The position numbers and the translations under genes were made by a program. The notes under the pieces are model-generated. The model worked only from the letters and a program-made list of their open reading frames with translations, was not told where the DNA came from and ran no database searches. A stretch of 54,415 nucleotides of DNA from Chitinophaga pinensis (GTDB taxonomy: Bacteria > Bacteroidota > Bacteroidia > SXHM01): the NCBI GenBank assembly GCA_945870105.1, contig CAMBRL010000007.1, positions 1 through 54,415 on the forward strand, in the 5' to 3' direction. Shown here in pieces: positions 7,093 to 26,269 of this stretch; position 1 is the stretch's first letter; each line of letters begins with the position of its first letter.

Positions 7093-7110
7093 GCACGTAA
7101 TAAGTAATAT

Positions 7111-7163
7111 GTAAGATGTAATATTTGGTGGGTAAACCATCAAAATATTACATCTTACTTTTT
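7111..7163 (+). terminator. Intrinsic terminator after rpoC
   Basis: Perfect 16-bp inverted repeat GTAAGATGTAATATTT (7111-7126) / AAATATTACATCTTAC (7143-7158) followed by TTTTT. Confidence 0.8.
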
Positions 7164-7179
7164 AAATCTTACATATAAA

Positions 7180-16953: not shown

Positions 16954-16978
16954 CGGGGACTAAATTACGGAATTGGTT

Positions 16979-17068
16979 CGTCATTGCGAGGCACGAAGCA
17001 ATCTCCTGTATGAACTACTGGTTATTATTATGAGATTGCTTCAGGGCGAAAAGCCCTTCGCAATGACG
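16979..17068. repeat. REP-like inverted pair, family A
   Basis: CGTCATTGCGAGGCACGAAGCAATCT ... AGATTGCTTCAGGGCGAAAAGCCCTTCGCAATGACG. Confidence 0.8.
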
Positions 17069-17849: not shown

Positions 17850-18290
17850 AACGTGTTGTAGCTTTATGAATTAACTTGTTCAGCAGACGAAGTAATCTGT
17901 TCAAAATAATTTAACGTTTTGTAGGTTTATGAATTAACTTGTTCATCAGGTGAAGTAATCTGTTCAAAAAAATTTAACGTGTTGTAGCTTTATAAAATAA
18001 CTTATTAATCAGACGAAGTAATCTGTTTGTAATAATTTAACGTGTTATAGCTTTATAAAATAACTTGTTCATCAGACAAAGTAATCTGTTCGAAATAATT
18101 CAACGTGTTATAGCTTTATAAATTAACTTGCTCATCAGAAGAAGTAATCTGTTCAGAATAATTTAACGTGTTGCAGGTTTTTGTTTTAACCTGCTCAACC
18201 GCTAAAGCTATTTGTTGAAGAAAATTTAACGTGTTAAATGTTTTTATTACGATTACTTGCTCTGTTAACTCGGTTTCAATGAACGATTGT
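17850..18290. repeat. Seven-unit 63-bp tandem repeat array (three about 21-bp sub-repeats per unit)
   Basis: Units start at 17850, 17913, 17976, 18039, 18102, 18165 and 18228, every 63 bp; consensus AACGTGTTGTAGCTTTATRAATTAACTTGTTCATCAGACGAAGTAATCTGTTCAAAATAATTT. Confidence 0.95.
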
Positions 18291-18576: not shown

Positions 18577-19134
18577 ATGAAAATTGACATTGGCAAATAT
18601 TTAAGAGAGCATCTGCCTTATAGTATTGAAACAATGTTTTCTCATCATGTTTACAAAATTAAATATCATGAAAAGATTATTGATGATAACCAAATTCTTA
18701 GAGGCGTTTTTGTTGGCTCTATAACAAAAGGAAGGATGATCTTAGAAGTCTTAGGAATTAAGCTACATGCTAATGGAGAAATCCAAGAGGATCCGAATTT
18801 GACAAAGGATAAAATAGGAGAAGATAACAAGAACACTAGTGTATATGCAGATAATCTAGGAGGTAAACTCGTTAACGTAGTAGATTTAAAAAATAATTTT
18901 CCTGACGAAATGGAGAATATTAAACATTATCTCATTGCTGCAAATAAATATGAATTACACTTAACAAAACAGCGCTATGAAGTAGATTTGAAAAAATATG
19001 ATAAAGCATTACCTTTTATATTAAAGTTAATAGATGAACACATTTACTTAAATTGCGCTGAAAATAGATTAATTAGAGAAGACCTACTAAAAAACAATAG
19101 GACTTTACGAGAATTATTTGAAGCGAATTATTAA
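18577..19134 (+). CDS. Hypothetical protein
   Basis: 185 aa intact ORF in AT-rich DNA; TAGGTTTG promoter-like box at 18523-18530. Confidence 0.6.
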   Translation: MKIDIGKYLREHLPYSIETMFSHHVYKIKYHEKIIDDNQILRGVFVGSITKGRMILEVLGIKLHANGEIQEDPNLTKDKIGEDNKNTSVYADNLGGKLVNVVDLKNNFPDEMENIKHYLIAANKYELHLTKQRYEVDLKKYDKALPFILKLIDEHIYLNCAENRLIREDLLKNNRTLRELFEANY

Positions 19135-19198
19135 CTTTTGTAACTCTAAATCTGCTTTATTAAACTGTAGTTTAATTATTAATATAATTGAAAGAAAC

Positions 19199-19864
19199 AT
19201 GAGATTTATATTTCTGTTATTTATATCCCCTATTTCACTGTTTGCACAGGATACAGAAAAGTTGCAATCAACTTTGGATAGTCTTGAAAAAGAAAAAGAA
19301 AAAGCATCCAAACAAATAGAGAATATTGATAAACAAATCAAAGATATAAATCAAGAAATATTTAAAACAGTTACCAAAAAAAATAGTGCGGATGGAGTAG
19401 TTATTAAAACCATCAATTCAACTGATATATTTGATACAAGAAATTGGACAACTAAATTGGGTACAATTCCTCCAAATTTTACATTATTAGGATATGATGA
19501 TAAATCTCCAGATTCATTTAAGTATTATTTAGTAAACTATAATGGTACGTCAGGTATTGTATTTACATCTGATGTAGAAACGATAATACAAGAACGAACA
19601 AGGTTAACAAAGGAGGAGATACTACTAAAAAATAGGCAAGAACAAATTGAATCACTACAAAAAAAATATGGGAAAGTAAACGGAGAGAGAATATATAATG
19701 AGTCCATTTGGATTGGAATGACAAAAGAAATGATAGTTGAAAGTTGGGGAAGTCCGAATGATATAAATAAAACCGTTGGTTCTTGGGGTGTGCACGAACA
19801 ATGGATTTATAATTCAACTTATTTATATATTGAAAATGGTATTTTGACTAGTTGGCAAGATTAA
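19199..19864 (+). CDS. Hypothetical secreted coiled-coil protein with C-terminal SmpA/BamE-like motif
   Basis: Start moved to ATG at 19199: MRFIFLLFISPISLFAQ signal peptide; KLQSTLDSLEKEKEKASKQIENIDKQIKDIN coiled coil; IWIGMTKEMIVESWGSPNDINKTVGSWGVHEQWIYNSTYLYIENGILTSW. Confidence 0.65.
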   Translation: MRFIFLLFISPISLFAQDTEKLQSTLDSLEKEKEKASKQIENIDKQIKDINQEIFKTVTKKNSADGVVIKTINSTDIFDTRNWTTKLGTIPPNFTLLGYDDKSPDSFKYYLVNYNGTSGIVFTSDVETIIQERTRLTKEEILLKNRQEQIESLQKKYGKVNGERIYNESIWIGMTKEMIVESWGSPNDINKTVGSWGVHEQWIYNSTYLYIENGILTSWQD

Positions 19865-19957
19865 TATAGCCCAACTAATAACATTTGTAATATCGTGTCA
19901 TCAATCTACATCTTCAAGGCCACAAACATGGTTTTGTTAATATTCTTGTAAAATTTT

Positions 19958-19990
19958 TTGTAAAAACATTTAATGACTTACATAGTTTTG
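19958..19990 (+). promoter_or_regulatory. Predicted Bacteroidota promoter driving the 20.0 kb RNA candidate
   Basis: TTG at 19958-19960, 22-nt spacer, TAGTTTTG at 19983-19990 (TAnnTTTG). Confidence 0.6.
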
Positions 19991-19995
19991 CAATG

Positions 19996-20183
19996 CATTA
20001 AATGAGGAAAGGGGCTCAATCATGTTATGCACATTATTGAAACCCCTTTCCGCCAGATTATACTGAAATACTAATTGGCTTATGAGACCATTTTCTCTCA
20101 GTCGCTGATTTGTTGCAGTGTTCATCTGACTAGCGACCAGCCATCGCATTATTATTAAAAAGCCCCACGCAAGGGGCTTTTTT
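19996..20183 (+). ncRNA. Candidate structured small RNA of unknown family
   Basis: No ORF; hairpins 20006-20051, 20052-20079, 20083-20100, 20101-20137 and a terminator hairpin 20158-20181; promoter box immediately upstream. Confidence 0.6.
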
Positions 20184-20184
20184 T
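20158..20184 (+). terminator. Intrinsic terminator
   Basis: AAAAGCCCC-ACGCAA-GGGGCTTTT followed by further T residues. Confidence 0.88.
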
Positions 20185-20360
20185 ATGACCGTAAATTTCG
20201 GCAATTAATGACCTTACATTTGGTTCAGTTTTGAACAAAAAGGAATAGTTTTCAACCTGACAGATGTCAGAAAAATATTTACTGTATTCGCACTTAAAAC
20301 CTAAAGCATCCCGATAGAATCAAAGTACATTTCCGAAATACTAATTTTGGCATCTCTGAA

Positions 20361-21190
20361 ATGAAACGCTTAGCTCTGCTTATTACGGTATGTATTCTTT
20401 CGCTGGGTATGACACCCGACAAGCAGGGCATTGTTAATGCACAGTATTATTTAAACCAGGCCTATGGTCCGCACAAGCGCAATAAAATGGATGTGTACCT
20501 GCCTGCAACACGCAAAGAAAATACACCCACCATAATTTTAATACACGGTGGCGCCTGGGTAATAGGTAATAAAACAGCTGGCCTGCAGAAATTATAAACG
20601 GCCTGGTGCAACAGGGTTTTGCAGTAGCATGTATTAATTACCGCTATGCCTGCGGTGATTTTCATGCGCAGATGGATGATATACAATCAGCCATTGATTA
20701 CCTGCGCACCAAAAGCACCGAATGGCAAACAGGCAATGGCAACATAGGACTGGCAGGCGTAAGTGCTGGCGCACATCTGTCGCTGTTGTTTGCACATAAA
20801 TATGATCCTGCACATCAGGTAAAAGCAGTGGTTTCTTTAGCCGGCCCTACCAACCTTGGTGATACATTGTTACAAAAATACCTGAACCGCCACTTTATTA
20901 ACTTTGTTATAAAACGTTTTCTGGGCACAACCGATGCACAGGTTTGTGCTGATGCCAGTCCCGCAGTTAACCCCGGCAAAGTGCCTACTTTGTTTATTAA
21001 TGGAGACAGAGATAAACTGATACCCGCAGAACAAAGCCTGCGTATGTTCAATATCCTTGCAGCCAATGCAACCCCTGCCGACACAACCGTTCTGCGAAAT
21101 ACGGGCCATTACATCTATGGTGTCCGAAACGTAAACATCCCGCAACTCAGCAGTGAGATTAATCAGTGGATGAAAACTTATTTGCAGTAA
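20361..21190 (+). pseudogene. Alpha/beta hydrolase (esterase/lipase, BD-FAE-like), frameshifted
   Basis: HGGAW in frame 1 (ends 20597), GVSAGAHLS in a second frame (open upstream of 20606 as PAEIINGLVQQGFAVACINYRYA); one missing base near 20579-20583 restores a continuous frame. Confidence 0.8.
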
Positions 21191-26187: not shown

Positions 26188-26269
26188 CGTCATTGCGAGG
26201 GTTTTTCACCCGAAGCAATCTCTTGATAATATTCAATTAGGAGATTGCTTCGCTTCGCTCGCAATGACG
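26188..26269. repeat. REP-like inverted pair, family A, between convergent genes
   Basis: CGTCATTGCGAGGGTTTTTCACCCGAAGCAATCTC ... GAGATTGCTTCGCTTCGCTCGCAATGACG. Confidence 0.8.

Follow-up and report, generated by a model that had tools for sequence, protein, structure and literature searches.

A candidate structured intergenic small RNA in a genus of uncultured Bacteroidota

The locus studied here raises the question of what occupies an intergenic stretch that opens with a promoter-like element, closes with a strong terminator and offers no credible gene in between. The window, that is, the whole 54-kb stretch of DNA that was analysed, corresponds to contig C7 in the draft genome of a member of the Bacteroidota (G000; 3.6 Mb), whose order was sampled by seven genomes of a single genus (G000–G006), among them the sister genome G006, which carries a homologue of the RNA. 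On the evidence described below we consider it probable (about 0.72) that this intergenic unit encodes a small RNA (sRNA) of ~190 nt that is transcribed on its own, is specific to a few species within a single genus of uncultured Bacteroidota and most likely acts in trans.

Extent and content of the unit

The preliminary description had proposed an orphan unit running from promoter to terminator through five consecutive hairpins, and both ends of that proposal hold (Table 1). The promoter-like element was found by sequence: TAGTTTTG is an exact fit to TAnnTTTG, the −7 consensus of Bacteroidota (PMC7366714), and it is by this consensus alone that the promoter was assigned. The terminator is borne out by both sequence and predicted fold. 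The transcript was taken to start ~7 nt past the −7 box and to end at the T run, and ~165 nt of folded sequence lie between the box and the terminator. In G006, the −7 box reads TAATATTG, with one mismatch to the consensus, and the terminator is retained with a slightly shorter GC stem; conservation of the −33 TTTG and of the 22-nt spacing was sought in the G006 alignment and not found.

The earlier claim that the plus strand is devoid of a credible reading frame also stands, none being conserved either. A prmA-like plus-strand reading (NPFPPDYTEILIGL) was treated as chance, its frame being closed by stops on both sides. The locus thus presents the anatomy of a trans-encoded sRNA: it is intergenic, has its own putative promoter and intrinsic terminator, and lacks an open reading frame.

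Several features lie close by. Directly past the terminator (20209–20256), a palindromic GGTTCAGTTTTGAAC is followed by AGTTTT(C/G)AACC, an arrangement retained in G006. The 12-mer GAAATACTAATT occurs within the unit (20065–20076) and, perhaps by chance, again on the same strand at 20335–20346, shortly before the hydrolase gene that follows the unit. That gene (alpha/beta-hydrolase, BD-FAE; 20361–21190) carries a frameshift near 20590 that divides it in two, and corresponds to one 276-codon open reading frame in G003; the split reflects either an assembly error or a broken gene.

Table 1. Features assigned to the unit (positions in the window)
Feature	Position	Strand	Description
Putative promoter	19957..19990	+	TTTG 19957–19960, spacer 22 nt, TAGTTTTG 19983–19990
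Proposed sRNA transcript	19997..20190	+	~185–195 nt; inferred from promoter and terminator
H1, 18-pair hairpin	20006..20051	+	pairing probability 0.9–1.0
Long interrupted hairpin, 75 nt	20054..20128	+	most pairs at probability 0.9–1.0
Small hairpin GCGA/UCGC	20133..20147	+	pairing probability 0.88–0.97
Intrinsic terminator (H5)	20157..20184	+	AAAAAGCCCC-acgcaa-GGGGCTTTTTTT; sequence and fold

Predicted fold

The sequence from 19990 to 20190 is predicted to fold with −66.5 kcal/mol (z −6.2), a stability that none of 200 shuffled sequences equalled. The core has a z-score of −6.1 after removal of the terminator, and of −3.2 when H1 is removed as well (0 of 500 shuffles equally stable). When 679 segments of 160 nt were scanned across the 54 kb, five, including that of the sRNA, fell below z −5; others below this value are two with REP-like palindromes (~16976–17067 and ~26188–26269) and one with a long palindrome (~7106–7178). 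The REP-like inverted repeats occupy two intergenic sites, 16976–17067 and 26188–26269 (GTCATTGCGAGG...GAAGCAATCTC / GAGATTGCTTC...GCAATGACG).

The five-hairpin model survives in part. H1, H3 and the terminator are recovered, H3 (UGAGA/UCUCA, 20083–20100) now forming the tip of a long interrupted rod whose helices are CAGAU/AUCUG, AUACUG/CAGUGU and AAUUGGC/GCUGAUU. H2 and H4 are displaced by this rod, their pairing probabilities being just ~3e-5 and ~1e-5, respectively. Consistently, the combination of H2, H3 and H4 yields −14.4 kcal/mol (−17.2 kcal/mol when refolded around it) compared with −24.0 kcal/mol for the rod, which is thus favoured by ~7–10 kcal/mol.

Both rods are again predicted for G006, with a shorter H1 base of 7 bp. 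The two available sequences (G000 and G006) exhibit no compensatory pair changes: in an ungapped alignment, the helix changes disrupt five pairs and leave another as G-U, and in a gapped alignment some of the changes at the H1 base amount to a one-register slip. The predicted RNA structure is hence backed by energy and not by covariation.

Since most of the RNA is predicted to be paired, it may alternatively serve to bind a protein. The unit might then represent an undescribed RNA family, confined to this uncultured Bacteroidota order, whose two rods bind a protein (e.g., RNA polymerase or a ribosome factor) and not mRNAs, a reading that we regard as unlikely.

Conservation, distribution and history of the locus

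The homologue in G006 resides on record CANKAM010000018.1, and the alignment of the two genomes spans 19923–20283. Within 20002–20156, 7 of 152 aligned sites are substituted, four of them at the 5' edge; the ~140 nt from 20012 to 20153 contain three substitutions, and the 20054–20128 rod a single one. Divergence amounts to 18/99 just downstream of the terminator, to 18/59 upstream of the −7 box, and, in the desaturase gene next to the unit, to 22/123 (~18%) at four-fold sites. Compared with the RNA body, the stretch past the terminator gives a Fisher P of 8.5e-4 and the four-fold sites one of 5.7e-4, both values being approximate because the segment boundaries were picked after alignment. This comparison suggests that selection acts on the body of the transcript. 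Moreover, because divergence of the flanks roughly matches the silent rate and that of the RNA body does not, the tract is not simply the product of a recent transfer. As to the two genomes at large, most shared loci are 89–97% identical and some contig pairs (L055/L074, L059/L048, L061/L062) 99.9% identical, the latter suggesting mixed bins or recent exchange.

The RNA is found in 2/7 genomes of the genus (G000 and G006), of which several assemblies are incomplete (G003 is 87% complete), and a more sensitive search of G001–G005 revealed no divergent copy. Likewise, an RNA search model applied to 392 genomes of the class and 398 of the phylum matched only in G000 and G006, an exact 24-mer searched across GTDB species genomes matched only in G006, and the phages and plasmids searched contained no copy. 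Other matches were set aside. Those from a class-wide DNA search were almost all confined to the terminator; four non-terminator matches that were inspected (L034–L037) are short and isolated, and at least two of them lie within coding sequence. A minus-strand match of the model at 19962–20051 is the palindrome of H1 itself.

Neither side of the RNA has the same neighbouring genes in G000 and G006: two genes (18577–19864) lie just upstream in G000 and are missing from G006, and a 137-codon gene downstream in G006 is missing from G000. The RNA therefore does not belong to a single gene as its leader or trailer. G003 is collinear with the locus (98% in the left flank, 94% in the right flank), and between its flanks the RNA is absent and a REP-associated tyrosine transposase-like gene is present (NF047646; E 2.7e-14, short of the curated cut-off). 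At the left junction, G003 resembles G006 up to GTTGATATTTT and from there the sequence beyond the RNA in G006; these short matches suggest that the RNA was deleted in G003. The window additionally contains, upstream of the genes inserted in G000, an intergenic array of ~5–6 copies of a 63-bp AT-rich tandem unit (17850–18236), and a related array is located at the equivalent place in G003.

This plasticity (a two-gene insertion upstream in G000, the transposase-like gene that stands where the unit would be in G003, and further REP-like palindromes in other parts of the window) might be taken to indicate that the unit is a non-transcribed DNA palindrome or mobile-element remnant (REP/RAYT-like) at a site of recurrent insertions and deletions. 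However, REP/BIME elements come in multiple dispersed copies and the RNA has one match in its own genome; being single-copy in each genome that carries it, it is not a dispersed repeat. Furthermore, the conserved body covers loops and internal loops as well, and the unit is flanked by a −7 box and a terminator. We consider such a remnant improbable.

A second alternative takes up the fallback of the preliminary description, a 6S RNA peculiar to this lineage or some other housekeeping RNA, and would have it sequester RNA polymerase. A length near 190 nt and a long interrupted rod are shared with 6S RNA (RF00013), and none of the seven genus genomes contains a recognised 6S or 6S-Flavo gene, so that a diverged one is presumably located somewhere. 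Yet among Rfam families, which the preliminary description had named as a check, none was matched at the gathering threshold, and with the covariance models of 6S (RF00013) and 6S-Flavo (RF01685) nothing was matched when E was relaxed to 10; weak matches (STnc370, RNAI and others) were far under their cut-offs, mostly over the terminator, and were rejected. The predicted fold comprises two separate rods with small internal loops and is devoid of a large central bubble in a closed hairpin. Finally, 6S genes are normally retained throughout a clade, whereas this RNA is patchy, occurring in two of the seven genomes and missing at the same site of the close relative G003. An RNA that stays constant amid changing neighbours and yet may be lacking altogether is a poor fit to a housekeeping role, and we judge the fallback quite improbable.

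Least probable of all is a minus-strand gene for a small protein (51–66 codons) conserved at the protein level: such a frame is open in both G000 and G006, but substitutions at 20036 and 20110 alter the amino acid (N to K and N to Y), indels shift the frame near its end, and no Pfam match exists even at E up to 1.

Proposed function and comparison with known sRNAs

The suggestion of an undescribed structured sRNA is thus supported, as the best explanation, by the lack of an Rfam match, the stable predicted fold, the body conserved in G006 and the terminator kept there, and is corrected with respect to H2 and H4. The unit has the look of a regulator peculiar to its lineage, and less that of an RNA with housekeeping duties. 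In the model that we favour, the sRNA would be transcribed from its own sigma-A-type promoter, the two stable rods would protect it and expose loops and linkers, and pairing with mRNAs (or binding of a protein) would adjust the expression of other genes. A conserved apical loop, CCAUUUUC, has a start-codon-like complement (GAGAAAATGG / GAAAAUGG); for this one seed tested, GAGAAAATGG occurs 14 times in G000 versus 10 for the control, mostly inside genes and with no enrichment at start codons, and the test thus lends support to no target.

Lineage-specific sRNAs of this kind are common, and hardly any small RNAs have been mapped in uncultured Bacteroidota. An sRNA present in some sister species and gone from the same spot in another would provide an example of RNA gene turnover.

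By acting in trans, the RNA would resemble intergenic sRNAs of Bacteroides and Flavobacterium; studies in the phylum have demonstrated action in trans where homologues of Hfq or ProQ are not obvious (PMC7366714). As judged from its description, GibS of Bacteroides (145 nt; PMC7366714) is likewise (i) a stand-alone intergenic unit, (ii) provided with a promoter and an intrinsic terminator of its own, and (iii) restricted to a genus. GibS is, however, mostly unfolded and carries a conserved 5' seed that is single-stranded, whereas the sRNA described here is predicted to be highly structured, with a free 5' tail of only ~9 nt. In a different lineage of the phylum, the Rfp transcripts of Flavobacterium psychrophilum, likened here by description, are independent units as well; their median length is 176 bp, and 40% of those that are not antisense are predicted to be strongly structured (PMC9723704).
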